Notes under the pieces: generated by a model | Seen by the model: only the letters and a program-made list of their open reading frames with translations | What the model was told of the DNA's origin: nothing | Database searches by the model: none | Translations under genes and position numbers: made by a program | Assembly: GCF_000495475.1 (NCBI RefSeq) | Contig: NZ_ASGZ01000068.1 | Span: 56,661 to 120,660, forward strand | Length of the DNA: 64,000 nucleotides | Direction of reading: 5' to 3' | DNA from: Candidatus Halobonum tyrrellensis G22 | GTDB lineage: Archaea > Halobacteriota > Halobacteria > Halobacteriales > Haloferacaceae | In this document: piece after piece, positions 50,640 to 64,000 of the stretch | How the letters are laid out: each line of letters starts with the position of its first letter | Numbering within the stretch: position 1 is the stretch's first letter

Positions 50640-53354
50640 TCAGTTGACCTCTTCGTAGAGGGAGACCACGTCGTCGTAGTCGAGTTGGCCGTTCTCGTTG
50701 AAGTCGTACGCCGACTCGTTCATCCGGACGCTCTCGGAGTCGAAGTTCTCGAAGAGGATCTCGACGTCCTGGTAGTCCAGCCGGCCGTTGCCGTTGAGGT
50801 CCTCGTAGAGACCGTCGTTGTCGAGGTCCTCGGGGGCGGTGCCGTCGTCGCCGCCGACGTTCGACGGGCCGGCGACGAACACGCCCGAGAGCCCCTCGGC
50901 GTCGAGCGACTCGCCCGACTCGTCGTCCATCCGCTCGACGTCGACCGTCAGGTCGGTCGTCCCGGTGGCGTCGGCGCGGACGGTCAGCGACGCGAGTTCG
51001 ACGTTGCGGCCGCCCGGCTGGACGCCCTTCTCGGTGTCGGCGAACCGCAGCGTAGCCGTCGACCCGTCGCTCGACACCGAACGCTCGGTCAGCCCGAGTT
51101 CGTCGGCGAACTCGACGCCCTCGATGGTCGCGACGTCGGGGTCGGAGACGCCGACCGTGAGCGTCGCGCCCGACACCCCGCTCGGGAGCGAGGTGGCCTC
51201 GACCGGCACGCTTGCGGTCTTCCCCTGCGCGACGGCCATCGACGCGACGTCGACCGTCACGTTGGGCTGGTAGACGTACAGGCAGTCGTTGGGGTACGAC
51301 CGCGCGGGACCGCCGAAGCCGTCCTCACAGCAGAGGACGCGCCCGTCGCGCATCGCGTAGACGTTGTCGATGTTGCGGAGCGCGCCGTCGGCGGCTCCGG
51401 GGCTGTCGGTGAAGTCGGGACCGACGATGACCGGGTCGAGCCGCGAGACGTCGTAGTCCGGTTCGAGTTCCGCCCGGTAGACGACGCCGCCGTCGACGCG
51501 GTCCATCTGGACGTCGCCGGTGTCGTTCGCGAGGTCGTCGTTGAACTCGGAGATGCCGAAGTAGACGAAGTCGCCCGGCTCGGAGTCGTCGACGCTGTCG
51601 ACGCCCTCCGCCTTGTTGAACTCGATCGAGGCGCCGATCTCCTTGGCCGCGGCGCGGGTCTCGAGGAACGGCACCCGGCGGAGGTCCTCGTCGACGCCGC
51701 CGGGACCGTGCTGTTCGTACTGTTCGGCCCACGCGAGGATGTCCTCGTTGCTGATGTAGTTCCGGTTGCCGTTTTCGATGACCTCCAGGTCGGCCTCCTT
51801 GAGCGCCGCCTCGGGGTCCGCCTCCCAGTCGGTGTCCGCGTGTGCGTCGAGGTAGTCGGCCTGCGTGATGTCGTCGTACTCGGCGATCCACGACTCCACC
51901 TCGCCGTTGGTGGCGTGGCCGAGCTCCATCCACTCGATTTCGAGCGGGGTCTGCGCCGGCGAGTTGCGGCTCCCCGACTCGGCGGCGTTGGCGGCGTCGT
52001 TGGTGATCTTCGGCGCGTACAGCGTGCCCGCGATGTCGTCGGTGTCGTCGTAGCTGTCGATCGGTGCGTCGGCGACGAACTTGTAGACCCCCTTGCTGTC
52101 GCCGTCCGAGCAGCCGTAGACGGTCTTGCGGTCGCCCTGGATGTCCGGCGCCTCCCAGGAGGCGCGGCCCATCACCCAGTACTTCATCGGCGTCGGCGGG
52201 TCGGCCGCGGGGTCGCGGATGTCCACGAAGTAGCCGTAGCGGTACGGGTTGGGGTAGACGTCGTCGATGGGCGTCGTCGCGAGGTTCTCCTCGCCGTCTT
52301 GGTCGGCCGGGTCGGCGCCGAGGTAGTACGCGAGGAACTCGACGCCGTCGAGCGCCCAGTACCCCTGCGGGCCGAACGCCTCGGCGACGTCGCCGCTCTC
52401 GGCGTACGTCTCGATGGCCGGCCCGATCTCCGTCGGGTTCGGCCGGTTCCAGAACTGACAGCCGCCGACGAGGCCGACGCCCGACTCCGCCTCGACGATC
52501 TCGCCGACCGTGTGGGTCAGGTTAACGCGGGGGTGCGCGTAGTTCTCCTCGGCGGAGATCATCGTGTCCCACGGGCTGAGGTCGCCGTAACAGTTGATCC
52601 GCGTCCCGCCGATATCGCGGAACGCGTCGGTGTTGACCAGGTTGCTCGCGTTCTCCAGGTCGGCGCTCCACTCGCCGTCGTCGTCCCGGCTGATCGGAAC
52701 CCGCGAGACGTTACCCGGGCTGTTCTCCCAGTTGGTGAACAGGTACCCCTCGGTCCCGTCGTCGTTCGTCGGGACGAACTGGTTGCAGTCGGGGTTGCTC
52801 GCCGCCAGACCGTACTGGGTGCCCGCGAAGTAGGTGTCCGCTCCCGCGGAGTCGGCGCCGACCGCCCCGCTGTCGTCCCGGTTGATGATGTTCCGGCCGT
52901 CGGGGGTCCGGGTCACGCCCAGCAGCGCCGACCCGTCGCGGATCGGCTGGCGGCCGTAGAAGAGGACCTCGTACTCGCTGTCGACCGCCCGAACGTCGCC
53001 CTGTTCCTCGCGGGTCTCGGGGATGTCCACCTCGGTGAAGTCCTCGTTGCTCCCGTCGAACTGGAACTGGAAGCCGCTGAAGTAGCCGACCGCCGCCCGT
53101 CCGAACGGTTCGCCGTTCTCCGCGGAGGGGTGCTGGAGGCTGTACAGCAGCGACCCGTCCTCGAAGACGAACGGACCGGTCACCTCCGCGCCGAACGCGG
53201 TCGTCGAGAAGCGCTTGAGACTCCCCTTCACGCTCGGGGCGCCAGCCGTGTCCGACTCCGGTACTTCCTCCGCACTCGCGACGCCGGCCACGCTCGCACC
53301 GAGCGCGGCAGCGACCGACGACGCCATCAGGTTCCGCCGATTCAGGTCCACCAT
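50640..53354 (-). CDS. PhoX-like secreted esterase/phosphatase with cohesin-like and dockerin modules
   Basis: A 904-residue exported protein. A Tat signal opens it: twin-arginine NRRNLMASSVAAALG with VASA cleavage site around residue 28. Residues from about 40 to 690 match the PhoX/DUF839 beta-propeller phosphatase family (GDLSPWDTMISAEENYAHP). A cohesin-like domain spans about 695-825. Two EF-hand-like dockerin repeats, DLNGNGRLDYQDVEILF (about 850) and DFNENGQLDYDDVVSLY (about 884), end the chain; their Asp/Asn residues should bind Ca2+. PhoX enzymes hydrolyse phosphate esters with Ca/Fe cofactors. ATG 53354 is used because the upstream in-frame ATG would precede the Tat motif by 21 residues. 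Cotranscription with the downstream cohesin-like gene is likely. Confidence 0.8.
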   Translation of the reverse strand: MVDLNRRNLMASSVAAALGASVAGVASAEEVPESDTAGAPSVKGSLKRFSTTAFGAEVTGPFVFEDGSLLYSLQHPSAENGEPFGRAAVGYFSGFQFQFDGSNEDFTEVDIPETREEQGDVRAVDSEYEVLFYGRQPIRDGSALLGVTRTPDGRNIINRDDSGAVGADSAGADTYFAGTQYGLAASNPDCNQFVPTNDDGTEGYLFTNWENSPGNVSRVPISRDDDGEWSADLENASNLVNTDAFRDIGGTRINCYGDLSPWDTMISAEENYAHPRVNLTHTVGEIVEAESGVGLVGGCQFWNRPNPTEIGPAIETYAESGDVAEAFGPQGYWALDGVEFLAYYLGADPADQDGEENLATTPIDDVYPNPYRYGYFVDIRDPAADPPTPMKYWVMGRASWEAPDIQGDRKTVYGCSDGDSKGVYKFVADAPIDSYDDTDDIAGTLYAPKITNDAANAAESGSRNSPAQTPLEIEWMELGHATNGEVESWIAEYDDITQADYLDAHADTDWEADPEAALKEADLEVIENGNRNYISNEDILAWAEQYEQHGPGGVDEDLRRVPFLETRAAAKEIGASIEFNKAEGVDSVDDSEPGDFVYFGISEFNDDLANDTGDVQMDRVDGGVVYRAELEPDYDVSRLDPVIVGPDFTDSPGAADGALRNIDNVYAMRDGRVLCCEDGFGGPARSYPNDCLYVYQPNVTVDVASMAVAQGKTASVPVEATSLPSGVSGATLTVGVSDPDVATIEGVEFADELGLTERSVSSDGSTATLRFADTEKGVQPGGRNVELASLTVRADATGTTDLTVDVERMDDESGESLDAEGLSGVFVAGPSNVGGDDGTAPEDLDNDGLYEDLNGNGRLDYQDVEILFENFDSESVRMNESAYDFNENGQLDYDDVVSLYEEVN

Positions 53355-53390
53355 GCGAGTCAAGCGGTGGGTGTGCCGGTCAAATGCGTT

Positions 53391-53405
53391 TATATTGCGA
53401 ATATA
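53391..53405. promoter_or_regulatory. AT-rich dyad in the PhoX-like promoter
   Basis: TATATT-GCG-AATATA is a perfect 6-bp inverted repeat, 36 bp upstream of the PhoX-like start codon. It overlaps the probable TATA box and may be an operator. Confidence 0.45.
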
Positions 53406-53527
53406 GTATCGAAACAAGATTGCCGAGACGGGGGTGTGTGAACGTTCCTCACCGTACCGGAGAGGCGTCGCTGACGCGGCCGCCGCCCGACAGCGCTACC
53501 CCGGGTCGGCCGTCGGCCCGCTCCGAT

Positions 53528-53541: not shown

Positions 53542-53769
53542 TAGTGCGTGCGCCACGGGTGGTAAAAGAAACCGAGGTGCGCCGCCGCCAGCGGTGGACG
53601 AGGAGAAGTATCATTTATCGTTCTATCAATTATATTCGATTGTTCTTCGATTCAGCACCAATCACTATTCTGGGTGTTTCGATCGTCGAAGGCGTCGTCC
53701 CCCGAATGCGTTGGGTATTCTTTACGGCCGTACGTGCGTAATCGAGCGGGGAGGAGCGCGGACCGGGGA

Positions 53770-53778
53770 TTTATAAAC
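53770..53778 (+). promoter_or_regulatory. TATA box of the RdfA-like gene
   Basis: TTTATAAAC lies 22-30 nt before the GTG at 53800, at the haloarchaeal TATA position for a leaderless transcript. This decides the start over the longer upstream frame. Confidence 0.75.
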
Positions 53779-53799
53779 GAACGGCGCGTCCGTACGGGT

Positions 53800-54423
53800 G
53801 TGGCAGAGTCAAACTCGTCCGGGGACTCACAGTCGTCCCGCCGCCGCAGTAAGGTCGAACGCGTCATCGACGAGTACGACCTGGGGGAGGCGGGGGACAC
53901 GCTGGTGAGACGCTGGACCAGTGAGGGAGACGACCGGATGAGCCTCCGGGCACTGGCCGACTGGTTCAACACGCGGGTGTTGGAGGCGGCGCTCGAACGG
54001 AACGGGGAGACGCCGCTGGAGGGAGAGGTGGACAACCTCTATCGACTCCTGACCGACGACGACGCGAGCGCCGGCAGCCGCACCCAGGCGGAACGGACGC
54101 TCGAACGCGACGGAGTCGACCCGGAGGAACTCCGCTCGGACTTCCTCACCCATCAGACCATATACACGTACCTCACCAAGCGACGGAACGTCTCGCGGGA
54201 GGACACCGAGACGGACCCGATCGAGGCGGCCGAACGGCGCGTACAGGGCCTGCTCGGCCGGACGCAGGCGGTCGCCGAGGAGTCGCTCGGGCGACTAGCG
54301 GGCGACCAGATCCGGGTGGGCGACGCGGAAGTGTACGCCGACGTGTCGGTGTACTGTTCCGACTGCGAGCAGACGTTCGAGTTCGTCGACCTGCTCGAAC
54401 GCGGCGGCTGCGACTGCGCGTGA
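53800..54423 (+). CDS. rdfA: RdfA-like rod-determining factor
   Basis: A 207-residue haloarchaeal protein. It has SKVERVIDEYDLGEAGDTLVRRWTSEGDDRMSLRALADWFNTRVLEAAL at the N-terminus and a middle QTIYTYLTKRRNVSRED. A C-terminal Cys cluster (CSDCEQTF, CDC) suggests zinc binding. This is the RdfA pattern; RdfA promotes the rod cell form in Haloferax volcanii and is encoded next to an SMC-like gene, as here. It probably works with the protein encoded at 54489. Confidence 0.75.
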   Translation: MAESNSSGDSQSSRRRSKVERVIDEYDLGEAGDTLVRRWTSEGDDRMSLRALADWFNTRVLEAALERNGETPLEGEVDNLYRLLTDDDASAGSRTQAERTLERDGVDPEELRSDFLTHQTIYTYLTKRRNVSREDTETDPIEAAERRVQGLLGRTQAVAEESLGRLAGDQIRVGDAEVYADVSVYCSDCEQTFEFVDLLERGGCDCA

Positions 54424-54459
54424 GGCCGTAAGCGGGCGGACGGTCCCGCTACCGCCGCG

Positions 54460-54467
54460 CTTAATAC
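54460..54467 (+). promoter_or_regulatory. TATA-like box of the SMC-related gene
   Basis: CTTAATAC lies 22-29 nt upstream of the ATG at 54489, a promoter separate from that of RdfA. Confidence 0.5.
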
Positions 54468-54488
54468 CTCCTGTCCGAACTAAGGGAC

Positions 54489-56438
54489 ATGCCAACTGGT
54501 CAGGAAGCGGCACCGCACTGCACAGTGCGCGCGGAGAACATCGGGGGGATCGACTCGACGGAACTGACCCTCTCGTCGGGGGTAACGGTGCTCTCGGGGC
54601 GGAACGCCACGAACCGGACGTCGTTCCTCCAGGCGCTGATGGCGGGGCTCGGAGGGGACCAGGCGACGCTCAAGCGCGACGCGGACGAGGGGCGCGTCGA
54701 GTTGGAGTTCGACGGAGAGACGTACACGCGGACGCTGACGCGCGGCGGCGACGGCGTCGTGATGGGGGGCGACCCGTACCTCGACGACGCCACCACGGCC
54801 GAACTGTTCGCGTTCCTGTTGGAGTCGAACGAGGCGCGGCAGGTCGTCGAGCGCGCGGGCGACCTCCGCGAGGTGATCATGCGGCCCGTCGACACCGACG
54901 CGATCCAAGCGGAGGTGTCGCGGCTGACCGACGAACGACAGGACGTCGACTCGCGGCTCGACTCGCTGGAGTCGCTCGCCGACCGCCTGCCCGACCTCGA
55001 ACGGCGCCGGACGTCGCTCCGCGAGCAGATCGAGGAGAAGGAGACCGAACTCGCCGACAAGGAGACCGAAATCGAGGAGGCCGACGCCGAGGTCGAGGAG
55101 TCGCGGTCCGAGCAGGTCGAACTCGAGGAGACGTTGGAGGAACTCCGCGACGTGCGGTCGTCGCTCGAGGACGTCCGGTTCGACATCGAGACCGAACGCC
55201 AGAGCATCGAGGGGTTGGAGGACGACCTCGCGGAGTACGAGTCGGAGCTCGCCGACCTGCCGGAGACGCCCGCGGGCAACGTCGCGGACTTGGAGGACGA
55301 CATCGAGCGGCTGCGGAGCCGCGAGCGCGACATCGAGTCGACGCTCAACCGGCTCCAGCGCGTCGTCCAGTTCAACGAGGAGATGCTCGACGGCTCCGAG
55401 ACGGAGCTCCAGTCGGTGGTCGAGGGGAGCCGCGAGGGCGACGGCTCGGTCACCGACTCGCTGGTCGAGGGGGAGACGGTCACCTGCTGGACGTGCGGCT
55501 CGGAGGTCGACCCCGGGCGGATCGAGGAGACGCTCGACGTGCTCCGCGAGACCGCCGCCGAGAAGCGCGCCGAGCGCAACGAGGTCCGCGAGGAGCTCGA
55601 CGAGATCGAGTCCGACCGCTCCCAGTACGAACGACAGCAGCGCGAGCGCGACCGGCTCGAACGCCGGATCAGCGAGACCGAGAGCGAACTCGACCGGCGG
55701 CGCGACCGGATCCCCGACCTGGAGGACGAGCGCGACGACCTCCACGCGGAGATCGAGGAGCTCGAGTCGACCGTCGACGAACTCGAGGGCGCCGACCAGA
55801 GCCCGCTGCTCGACCTCCACCGCGAGGCGAACCAACTGGAGTTCGAGATCGAGCGGCTGGAGGGGGAGGTCGAGGACGTCGACGCCGAGATCGACGACAT
55901 CGAGTCGCAGCTCGACGAGCGCGACGACCTGGAGGCCCGCCGCGAGGAGATCGGCGAGGAACTCACCGACCTCCGGACGCGGATCGACCGGATCGAGCGG
56001 TCGGCGGTCGACGAGTTCAACGAGCAGATGGCGACCGTGCTCGACATCCTCGACTACGAGAACCTCGACCGCGTCTGGATCGAGCGCCGCGAGACGACCC
56101 GGCAGGAGGGCCGCCGGAAGGTCGAGACGACCGTGTTCGACCTCCACGTCATCCGGAGCACCGGCGACGGGACGACGTACGAGGACACGATCGACCACCT
56201 CAGCGAGTCCGAGCGCGAGGTGATCGGGTTGGTGTTCGCGCTCGCGGGCTACCTCGTCCACGAGGCGTACGAGGAGGTTCCGTTCGTCCTGCTCGACTCG
56301 CTCGAAGCCATCGACTCCGAGCGGATCGCCGACCTGGTCGACTACTTCGGCGAGTACGCCGACTACCTCGTGGTCGCGCTCCTCCCCGAGGACGCCGCCG
56401 CGGTCGACGACCGTCACGAGCGCGTCGCCCCCGCCTGA
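54489..56438 (+). CDS. Archaea-specific SMC-related protein (Sph3-like)
   Basis: A 649-residue SMC/Rad50-like ATPase half. It has an N-terminal P-loop SGRNATNRTSF (36-46) and a long charged coiled coil (about 140-330 and 350-520). A CxxC hinge (C333/C336 in CWTCGSEV) resembles the Rad50 zinc hook. The C-terminal part carries LSESEREVIGLVFALAG and a Walker-B-like FVLLDSLEAID. The Walker A lysine is replaced by R43, a notable deviation. Together with RdfA it is expected to influence cell shape rather than chromosome condensation. The start ATG follows its own TATA box. Confidence 0.78.
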   Translation: MPTGQEAAPHCTVRAENIGGIDSTELTLSSGVTVLSGRNATNRTSFLQALMAGLGGDQATLKRDADEGRVELEFDGETYTRTLTRGGDGVVMGGDPYLDDATTAELFAFLLESNEARQVVERAGDLREVIMRPVDTDAIQAEVSRLTDERQDVDSRLDSLESLADRLPDLERRRTSLREQIEEKETELADKETEIEEADAEVEESRSEQVELEETLEELRDVRSSLEDVRFDIETERQSIEGLEDDLAEYESELADLPETPAGNVADLEDDIERLRSRERDIESTLNRLQRVVQFNEEMLDGSETELQSVVEGSREGDGSVTDSLVEGETVTCWTCGSEVDPGRIEETLDVLRETAAEKRAERNEVREELDEIESDRSQYERQQRERDRLERRISETESELDRRRDRIPDLEDERDDLHAEIEELESTVDELEGADQSPLLDLHREANQLEFEIERLEGEVEDVDAEIDDIESQLDERDDLEARREEIGEELTDLRTRIDRIERSAVDEFNEQMATVLDILDYENLDRVWIERRETTRQEGRRKVETTVFDLHVIRSTGDGTTYEDTIDHLSESEREVIGLVFALAGYLVHEAYEEVPFVLLDSLEAIDSERIADLVDYFGEYADYLVVALLPEDAAAVDDRHERVAPA

Positions 56439-61842: not shown

Positions 61843-62322
61843 TCAGACCGGGTCGAGGTCGTACCCCCACTCGCGGAGCACGGCCGCGACGAGGTCGGGG
61901 TTGCGCTGGGCGAGAACCATCGCCGCCTCCCGGTAGTCGGACTTGTACACCTCCTCGCCGAGCGAGGCTTCGAGCGCCGCCTGGAGGTCGGACTCCCCGT
62001 CGATCACCTCCTCGCGGAGGAAGAACGGCACCTGGCTCCGCCCCTCGTTCACCGTCTCCCGGCGGAGGGTGTACGGGAGCGACTCCACCGTCGGGCGGGC
62101 GTCGGTGGCGTCCGTGTCCGCCGCCGGCTCCCCCTCGCCCGCGTCGGCCGCCCCCTCCCCGGGTTCGCCGTCGGGCGCGTCGGCCGAGTCGGCCGCCCCC
62201 CCGCGGTCGGAACGGTCCTCGTCGGCCCGCCCACCCTCCGCGGCCGCTTCGCCGCCGTCGCCGTCGTTTCCGTCGTCGCCGTCGTCCAACCCCGCGTCGC
62301 GCGACCCGGACTTGAGCCCCAT
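61843..62322 (-). CDS. ParA-associated small acidic partner protein
   Basis: A 159-residue protein. The first 80 residues are Asp/Glu/Gly/Ala low complexity and disordered. The C-terminus (LPYTLRRETVNEGRSQVPFFLREEVIDGESDLQAALEASLGEEVYKSDYREAAMVLAQRN...) is compact and may bind DNA or ParA. It is translationally coupled to parA (ATGA overlap), as partition partners often are. It is proposed as the ParB/adaptor of the pair; no ParB homology is seen. Confidence 0.55.
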   Translation of the reverse strand: MGLKSGSRDAGLDDGDDGNDGDGGEAAAEGGRADEDRSDRGGAADSADAPDGEPGEGAADAGEGEPAADTDATDARPTVESLPYTLRRETVNEGRSQVPFFLREEVIDGESDLQAALEASLGEEVYKSDYREAAMVLAQRNPDLVAAVLREWGYDLDPV

Positions 62323-63200
62323 CAGACGCTCACCTCCGGTTCGTCGGTGCCCGTCTCGGGCGTCGGCAGCCCGGCCTCGCGTTCGAGGTGGCGCGCGAGT
62401 CGGTCGAACCGGTCGAGCGTGTCGAGTTCGTACTCCCGCTTCCGCGAGCGGTGTTCCTCGACGTAGCGGTAGGGGCTACACTGCTGTTTCCAACACCCCT
62501 CCATCAGCGACCCGCGCTCGCCGACGACGACCGGGATGGGGAAGCCGCTCCCCCGGATCTCGTCGAGGATCTCGCGCTGGTCGCGGGTGTCCTTGTAGCC
62601 GACGGGGACCACCGCGAGCACGCCCACGTCGACGTCGATGCTCGCCTCCAGCCCGTCGACCAGGTCGTCGAGCCCCTCGATCGACTCTTGACCCTTCGCG
62701 GTCGCCTCGAACGGGATGACCACGTTCCGCACGGCCACGAGCGCGTTGTAGAGGATCGGACCCGCCTTCCCGGCGGTGTCGACGACGACCACGTCGTAGT
62801 CGTCGCGGACGCCCGCCCCGCTGAGCACGCGGTGGAGTTGGCCGTACATGCTGTACGCCTCGCCGAAGTTCTCCGCCTGCTCCTTCTCGTTGAGGAGGAA
62901 CTCGTGGAGGTCCTCGAGCATGTTGTGCGAGGGGACCAGGTCGACCCCGGCTTCCACCTCGATGGGCAGGTCGGCGAACGCACCCTTCGGCCGGCCGACC
63001 AGGTGTCGGACGAGGTTGTCCGCCTCGGGGTCGCCGCGGTCGTACTCCGGGCCGAACAGGTAGGTGAGACTCCCGTTTTGGGTGTCCATGTCGATCGCGA
63101 GCACGTCGTGGCCGGCGCGAGCGTGGCTCACCGCGAGCGTCGCCGCCGTCGACGTCTTGCCGACGCCGCCCGCCTCCGACACCGGCGCGTAGGTCAACAT
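62322..63200 (-). CDS. ParA family ATPase
   Basis: A 292-residue deviant-Walker partition ATPase. EAGGVGKTS (about 9-17) is the ParA/MinD P-loop, DMDTQNGSLTYLFG is the switch, and DVVVVDTAGKAGPILYNA the Walker-B region. The C-terminal segment, ending in an acidic tail, fits ParA. ATG 63200 precedes the P-loop by eight residues; the longer frame begins with a Cys-rich non-family segment. It partitions a replicon or cargo by ATP-driven positioning. The next gene downstream is its overlapping partner, and an iteron array lies 62 bp upstream. Confidence 0.8.
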   Translation of the reverse strand: MLTYAPVSEAGGVGKTSTAATLAVSHARAGHDVLAIDMDTQNGSLTYLFGPEYDRGDPEADNLVRHLVGRPKGAFADLPIEVEAGVDLVPSHNMLEDLHEFLLNEKEQAENFGEAYSMYGQLHRVLSGAGVRDDYDVVVVDTAGKAGPILYNALVAVRNVVIPFEATAKGQESIEGLDDLVDGLEASIDVDVGVLAVVPVGYKDTRDQREILDEIRGSGFPIPVVVGERGSLMEGCWKQQCSPYRYVEEHRSRKREYELDTLDRFDRLARHLEREAGLPTPETGTDEPEVSV

Positions 63201-63221
63201 ACCGGAGTAGCTATCGCCGCC

Positions 63222-63231
63222 ACACATAAGC
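63222..63231 (-). promoter_or_regulatory. TATA-like box of parA
   Basis: On the minus strand AAGCTTATGTG lies about 27 nt upstream of the parA ATG. The same GCTTATG core precedes the 58958-59689 gene. It sits between the gene and the iteron array. Confidence 0.5.
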
Positions 63232-63261
63232 TTCAGTCAGACAGTGTAGCGACGAGAGATA

Positions 63262-63365
63262 ACTATAGTCTATAGCTATACCTTTCAGCTATACCGCCCG
63301 ACTATACCGATCGATTATAGACTCAGACTATACTATCCAACCATACTGCTCAACTATAGTTTAGA
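63262..63365. repeat. Eight 13-bp iterons (RCTATAC array) upstream of parA
   Basis: Units start at 63262, 63275, 63288, 63301, 63314, 63327, 63340 and 63353, exactly 13 bp apart. Their first seven bases are ACTATAG, GCTATAC, GCTATAC, ACTATAC, ATTATAG, ACTATAC, ACCATAC and ACTATAG. The remaining six bases vary. The array is AT-rich in GC-rich DNA. It is probably a ParA/partner binding site (centromere-like) or an operator; a replication origin is less likely as no Rep gene is in view. Confidence 0.85.
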
Positions 63366-63450
63366 GATGCACCGGTGAGCTACACTCCGGGGCGATACCC
63401 GTCGGCGACAGTCGGCAGAGCCACCGCCGGTCGTGGAAGGGGCGAGCGAC

Positions 63451-64000
63451 CTACGGGATGTTTGGCGGCTCGGGCGGCCCGCGACCGGGACCGTCCCGCC
63501 GCCGGCTCTCGGCCGCGAGCGCCGCGGTGACGACGCCGCCGACCGCCATCGGCGCCCAGTAGGTCGCGACGCGGTACAGCACCACGCCGGCGGTCGCCCC
63601 GCCGACCGGGAGACCGCCGGCGCCGACGAGCAGGCCGACCAGCGCCGCCTCGACGCCGCCGACGCCGCCGGGGAGCGGCACCGCGACGGCGAGCAGGCCG
63701 ACCGGGAGGACGAACGCCGCGAGACCGACCGACACCGGGTGACCGACCGCGCGCATCGACAGCCAGAACGCGGCGACGAGGGCGGTCCACCCCGCGGCCG
63801 ACAGCCCCAGACAGGTCGCGAGACAGCGGCGGTTCCCCACCACGCGTTCGACCCCGCCGAGGAACGACGCCACCCGGGCGGCGAGCCGCGACGGGTCGAC
63901 CGGGAGGACGCGACCGGTGACGCGGTTGGCGGCCGCGACGGCGGCGACGGCGACGCGGACCGCCGCCCGCCCGGCGTCGTCGCGGGCGCGCCAGCCGACG
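63451..64000 (-). CDS. Flippase-like integral membrane protein (UPF0104/LPG-synthase TM type), partial
   Basis: The C-terminal part of a leftward gene that continues beyond the right edge. About 180 residues are visible. These include at least five hydrophobic helices with ACLGLSAAGWTALVAAFWLS and VPLPGGVGGVEAALVGLLVGAGG, the conserved P-G-G-x-G-x-x-E segment of the UPF0104/YbhN family. Members transport lipids or lipid-linked sugars. The chain ends in a Pro/Arg-rich tail. The N-terminus is missing. It lies 250 bp upstream of parA with the iterons between. Confidence 0.7.
   Translation of the reverse strand, partial: VGWRARDDAGRAAVRVAVAAVAAANRVTGRVLPVDPSRLAARVASFLGGVERVVGNRRCLATCLGLSAAGWTALVAAFWLSMRAVGHPVSVGLAAFVLPVGLLAVAVPLPGGVGGVEAALVGLLVGAGGLPVGGATAGVVLYRVATYWAPMAVGGVVTAALAAESRRRDGPGRGPPEPPNIP

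Follow-up and report, generated by a model that had tools for sequence, protein, structure and literature searches.

The 64,000-nucleotide stretch of DNA analysed here (the window) covers positions 56,661-120,660 of the forward strand of contig NZ_ASGZ01000068.1 (C68, 120,660 bases) of Candidatus Halobonum tyrrellensis G22 (GCF_000495475.1), whose draft genome comprises 3.68 Mb in 72 contigs; window and contig end at the same base. Close to that end, the window encodes a ParA-like ATPase and a small acidic partner protein, preceded by a tandem array of 13-bp units that is a candidate centromere of a plasmid partition system. The locus has the following features:

62322..63200, minus strand: ParA-like ATPase, 292 amino acids, MLTYAPVSEAGGVGKT start, Pfam AAA_31 (4e-19)
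61843..62322, minus strand: partner, 159 amino acids, with N-terminal motif MGLKSGSRDAGLDD, an acidic linker and a C-terminal domain
63262..63365, plus strand: core array, eight 13-bp units of RCTATAC followed by six bases
63236..63404, plus strand: putative extended array, 13 in-phase positions, some of them weak (unit matches and class-A profile)
63236..63242, plus strand: promoter-proximal element GTCAGAC, also the first in-phase array position
63224..63229, minus strand: predicted TATA-like hexamer TTATGT, 24-29 bases upstream of the ParA ATG
63451..63999, minus strand: flippase-like membrane protein of the lysylphosphatidylglycerol synthase TM family (Pfam LPG_synthase_TM, 3.3e-18; TIGR00374)

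Membership of the ATPase in the ParA superfamily is indicated by the AAA_31 match, which is above the cut-off, and by a match to Thermus Soj (1wcv, E 2.6e-10). The open reading frame reaches to 63227, which would add nine residues; however, the gene start is most likely at 63200, because the homologs have MLxYxxxSEAGGVGKT in common, beginning at the methionine of that position. Only ten residues then precede GGVGKT, leaving no room for an N-terminal DNA-binding domain. The last base of the ParA stop codon is also the first of the partner ATG, so that the locus has the type Ib layout: a two-gene operon of a ParA without an N-terminal helix-turn-helix domain, followed by a small adaptor. As originally proposed, the array lies between the flippase-like gene and this gene pair, and the partner does not look like a ParB: scans against Pfam and NCBIfam assigned it to no family, including any ParB family, and the CTPase and helix-turn-helix domains of canonical ParABS systems were thus not found. 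The flippase-like gene, which extends past the window end, is a neighbour outside the proposed system.

In the structure model of the partner, the linker (approximately residues 16-69) is acidic, of low confidence and unordered. It is followed by a C-terminal domain of about 75 residues, of which about 50-60 are confidently modelled, comprising an extended segment (97-103) and helices at 104-121, 127-140 and 142-151. The top structural match is the ribbon-helix-helix (RHH) repressor CopG (PDB 1ea4), a weak and monomer-based match for which no sequence relation was found. Segment 97-103 is aligned to the CopG strand, although DSSP assigns no strand there in the monomer model. CopG, a plasmid copy-number repressor, is not known to have an ATPase partner, whereas the protein studied here is encoded beside an ATPase. 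A profile of the partner matched no PDB chain at E ≤ 1. In its N-terminal motif, Lys4 and Gly6 are invariant in the 55 aligned rows of alignment A1. The listed homologs carry a precomputed assignment to PF25925.1, an entry absent from the local Pfam copy used. In one source, several of them bear the name of a flagellar M-ring protein, which is probably spurious.

The array had been reported as eight 13-spaced variants of RCTATAC from 63262, with single changes in two. The units and their spacing are as reported, but the variation was understated, since the units match the word at 6, 7, 7, 7, 5, 7, 6 and 6 of 7 positions, so that four are exact, three have one change and one has two. The phasing is beyond chance, as had been asserted: the summed score of the 13-spaced units is 51 of 56, compared with at most 34 when the local 181 bp were shuffled 5,000 times (periods 9-15) and with a best score of 31 in the whole window (any period of 7-30, multiples of 13 excepted). 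A lag-13 scan of the window gave an identity of 0.62 at 63257 (mean 0.28, standard deviation 0.054), followed by 0.50 for the next block. No comparable array was detected elsewhere in the 3.68-Mb assembly, which contains only scattered single pairs with two mismatches, approximately at the control level; single isolated sites were not searched.

From the unit matches, the array seems to continue past its originally described ends, with an inverted unit at 63236, a weak one at 63249, the eight core units, a weak one at 63366, and then two at 63379 and 63392. Units 63379 (GCTACAC) and 63392 (GCGATAC) each keep the phase and depart from the word at a single position, and the inverted unit is in phase at 63238-63250 when read on the minus strand. 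We scored these positions with a profile of the word class to which this array belongs (class A, see below), built from the units of 18 other loci, with the present array serving only as the starting seed for the alignment. The eleven top plus-strand matches in 63151-63480 are all in phase 0 of 13; seven of them exceed 7.9, the best match in 40 kb of window background, as does the inverted unit (11.0). Units 63379 (4.5) and 63392 (1.9) fall below this background, as does core unit 63314 (0.5). Nor are the six bases between the words unconstrained, as first thought: across class A they form the other half of a palindrome (TATA.CTATA). In this copy the second half is clear only around the first unit, and most units keep a single half.

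ParA homologs were found in 168 of 292 haloarchaeal genomes (E ≤ 1e-60) and in 142 plasmid records of PLSDB (E ≤ 1e-40). The P-loop patterns used placed the ParA start in 100 loci of a first set of 110, leaving 10 unplaced; sixty further loci from multi-copy genomes brought the total to 170, of which 165 were placed. L272, one of the five unplaced loci, has a period of 13 bp on later reading. The P-loop of all 165 placed homologs reads SE[A/S]GG[V/I]GK[T/S], so that the signature lysine of the deviant Walker A motif, KGGxGK[ST], is replaced by alanine in 164 and by serine in one. The partner directly follows ParA in 163 of the 165. In the 450 bp upstream of ParA, the dominant local period was 13 or 26 in 97 of the 100 loci of the first set and in 13 of 100 shuffled copies; mean identities at lags 13, 26, 39 and 52 in these loci were 0.378, 0.358, 0.337 and 0.319 against a background near 0.25. 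In the enlarged set, the strongest period was 13 (or 26) in 152 of 162 distinct upstream regions, which thus carry a tandem array that the adaptor is predicted to bind; four of the ten exceptions belong to class E3. The array is therefore conserved near homologous ParA pairs, its spacing being shared by many genera, the check that the preliminary description had suggested. A remoter ParA group (37-39% ParA identity, P-loop ESGGT[YF]KTT) had the 13-bp period in 10 of 10 cases, counted without a shuffle control.

As a control, we examined a different haloarchaeal ParA family (L160-L185), 22-25% identical to the present one, in which the period was 8 bp or a multiple of it in 26 of 26 upstream regions and never 13. 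This family keeps the signature lysine (P-loop QKGGTGKT in the eight sequences examined), and its acidic partner starts with MPRGMDERF or MPRGMNERF in seven of the eight. Its TCAnTGA-like array, within 450 bp upstream, may represent a second phased candidate centromere with another spacing. The G22 genome itself encodes a second, distant ParA on contig C70 (23424-24783; L002, L291), located directly downstream of an Orc1/Cdc6 gene and followed by its own small gene; its best upstream period is 9, not 13.

Grouping the loci by the strand segment of the partner gave ten classes, with 11 loci unclassed. The spacing is constant at 13 bp across the classes, and the word differs for each class:

Class A: RCTATAC/TATAGCTATA
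Class B: TGAACA
Class C: TTTGnAACA
Class D: TATCTAAGA
Class E1: rACTArT
Class E2: GGTTAGrCT
Class E3: ATAGmTA
Class F: TGrTTGAACCAG
Class G: ACTGnCCAG
Class H: AGTAGTAAT (two loci only)

In six of the ten classes (A, E1, E2, E3, F and G), the words are more palindromic than column-shuffled controls (P<0.05); the class B word is clearly not palindromic, and those of C, D and H are not significant. In a leave-one-out test with near-identical upstream regions excluded, array profiles picked the correct one of six classes for all 111 testable loci, where class A was defined by the ParA head and the other classes by the partner strand. This test left out seven E3 loci, which had too few independent training loci, and nine unscored ones (three E1, six unclassed).

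Two proteins could in principle read the word, and their contributions were compared on the 96 loci with a clear 7-unit block. At a ParA identity of 70-80%, array similarity was 0.73 in 250 same-class pairs versus 0.45 in 182 different-class pairs, so the word tracks the partner more closely than it tracks ParA. For example, a class F and a class B locus with 74% identical ParAs and 40% identical partner domains have an array similarity of 0.43. The nearest neighbour was of the same class for 92 of 96 loci by partner domain and for 85 of 96 by ParA, and the partial rank correlation with the array was 0.38 for the partner given ParA and 0.25 for ParA given the partner. Array divergence also correlates with ParA divergence, and a counterexample is a pair of loci (L239 of E2 and L121 of E1; ParA 71%, partner 40%) whose arrays are nonetheless similar (0.70). 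According to excerpts of PMC8465637, type Ia ParAs autoregulate their own operons, which would offer a precedent for a ParA that, rather than the partner, reads the array. We consider such a role very unlikely here, given the lack of room for an N-terminal DNA-binding domain, and because loci matched for ParA identity differ in word when their partner class differs. The comparisons thus favour the partner as the predicted reader of the word, with a contribution of ParA being possible.

The preliminary description had tentatively placed the array on an archaeal chromosome or integrated element. The occurrence of ParA in plasmid records points to plasmids, yet some copies are located on chromosome-sized contigs. 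The present copy may belong to a plasmid, a second chromosome or an integrated element. The gene pair is present on plasmids and megaplasmids such as pNRC200, pHME132, pHH400, pHLAC01 and pHG3. In all six named plasmid records that were re-examined among the 142, the best period was 13 or 26; class-B units are evident in pNRC200, PHS2 and pHME132, and the array signal is moderate in pHG3 and a Haloprofundus plasmid and faint (0.42) in pHH400. Copies of the same class rarely coexist in one genome: only one of 59 same-genome pairs was of one class, versus 6.4 expected by label shuffling (P 0.007), and this sole pair comes from a fragmented draft (G204). The count omitted pairs with an unclassed locus (11 labelled X, 1 labelled none), labelled apart two loci with damaged or misread partners, and included part of the further ParA matches. 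Such near absence of same-class pairs would follow from incompatibility between like centromeres.

Phased iterons are typical of plasmid origins, so the array could instead be bound by a replication initiator, with ParA simply encoded beside the origin. Several ParA genes are found no more than 1 kb into the replicon record, and the starts of such records are often placed at origins; Orc1/Cdc6 is encoded on the same contig here and in a number of relatives. The distance is about 100 kb on contig C68, and in the comparison of 22 hand-chosen genomes it varies from about 2 kb (G236 C5) to more than 60 kb (G113 C18), whereas the partner adjoins ParA at nearly all loci. This variability indicates that the array is not tied to the Orc1/Cdc6 gene; other initiator families were not searched. 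As the word also covaries with the partner, an origin is highly improbable.

The array abuts the promoter of the operon. In haloarchaea, a leaderless promoter has a TATA-like element at about the distance upstream of the start at which TTATGT is found, and its position fits such a promoter of parA. GTCAGAC occurs in 96 of the 162 distinct upstream regions, always 34-38 bases from the ATG (chance 0.006 per locus), and in most word classes, being absent from F and H. Its constant place across classes suggests a promoter-proximal element that is retained despite the changes of array word. In-phase array positions begin 36 bases before the ParA ATG, and class medians of the array start range from 5 to 81 bases before it. 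This placement would suit an array that is only a transcriptional operator, through which the partner or ParA controls the parA operon with no centromere role. Several observations make so restricted a function unlikely: at some loci (L016, L017) the most pronounced 13-bp block is found over 300 bp upstream; the gene pair combines a ParA, recorded on many plasmids, with a small adaptor; and the avoidance of the same word within a genome is not required by simple autoregulation. The two roles are compatible, since RHH-type partition sites overlap the promoters of their own genes, as described in excerpts of PMC9499535.

Taken together, we estimate at about 0.78 the probability that the array serves a haloarchaeal plasmid partition system, similar to bacterial type Ib, as both centromere and operator, and is read by the partner. 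In its support we observed the two-gene operon, a 13-bp phase that stays fixed while the word varies with class, the location of the array at the parA promoter, and how seldom one genome carries two copies of the same class. The original proposal, in which an unusual partition system may use the array as its centromere and the small acidic protein may read it, thus gains support from conservation and from a word that tracks the partner class. In the predicted mechanism, one partner dimer would occupy each 13-bp unit, reading the word through an RHH-type strand. Each dimer would be rotated by about 86 degrees relative to its neighbour (13 bp at 10.5 bp per turn), so that the dimers would wrap the DNA in a helix of protein. 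Lined up in this way, they would engage the ParA-like ATPase, with the N-terminal motif and its invariant Lys4 activating it, so that copies of the replicon would be moved or spaced. Occupancy of the array may also repress the parA operon, and the differing words may define incompatibility groups.

A broader reading, which we regard as rather doubtful, joins these elements. The array would be a general centromere of haloarchaeal megaplasmids, on which the adaptor polymerises in exact 13-bp steps (about 86 degrees) into one superhelix; the word would be rewritten together with the adaptor strand, giving at least ten mutually compatible groups; Lys4 would supply in trans the lysine lost by the ATPase; and the second ParA family would work likewise with an 8-bp step. 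We found no experiments on this ParA-partner family, nor a description of the array, in the open-licence literature.

Plasmid pSM19035 has a comparable design that is an established centromere, and the same role is proposed for the haloarchaeal array. According to excerpts of PMC9499535, its delta/omega system of type Ib combines a ParA-family ATPase with a small RHH adaptor, which binds contiguous 7-bp repeats at the par promoters without spreading. At least four contiguous repeats are needed there for efficient ATPase activation, and the adaptor N-terminus acts on ParA, an action only proposed for the haloarchaeal partner. Like that system, the haloarchaeal one has several contiguous tandem repeats at the par promoter; unlike it, the haloarchaeal units measure 13 bp rather than 7 bp, and many different words occur at their constant spacing. 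Furthermore, no sequence link to known RHH proteins could be detected for the haloarchaeal adaptor, which also has a long acidic linker and an additional helix at its C-terminus, and the haloarchaeal ParA lacks the signature lysine.

Among archaeal systems, SegAB of Sulfolobales is comparable, with a ParA-like ATPase, a small adaptor (SegB, an RHH protein) that has an unstructured N-terminus, and a 13-bp palindromic site beside the start codon (PMC12284271, in excerpt). However, SegB binds at dispersed chromosomal positions (46 sites in 39 peaks, same excerpt), in contrast to the one tandem array with strict 13-bp phase detected here. The partner matched no PDB chain, as noted above, and SegB sequences were not directly compared with it. 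The AspA-ParB-ParA cassette of pNOB8 is similarly an archaeal plasmid partition cassette with overlapping genes, but it encodes three proteins, including a distinct AspA and a chimaeric ParB (PMC5120986, in excerpt), as opposed to two genes with no ParB domain by Pfam in G22.

The segregation of archaeal plasmids and secondary chromosomes is largely uncharacterised, and the arrays provide sequence-defined candidate centromeres on well-known replicons such as pNRC200 of Halobacterium salinarum and pHME132 of Haloferax mediterranei. The natural word swaps make the reader, the spacing and incompatibility directly testable, and we offer as a rule that haloarchaeal plasmids be grouped by centromere word. 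The system would also represent a ParA family that functions, if at all, with its signature lysine missing.

Elsewhere in the window, 53674-56438 contains a gene for RdfA (rod-determining factor A; Pfam 3.2e-71) and, after it, one for an SMC-like coiled-coil ATPase, and 50640-53417 encodes a PhoX-family alkaline phosphatase homolog (Pfam 1.1e-19), whose C-terminal tail we take, by eye, to be dockerin-like.
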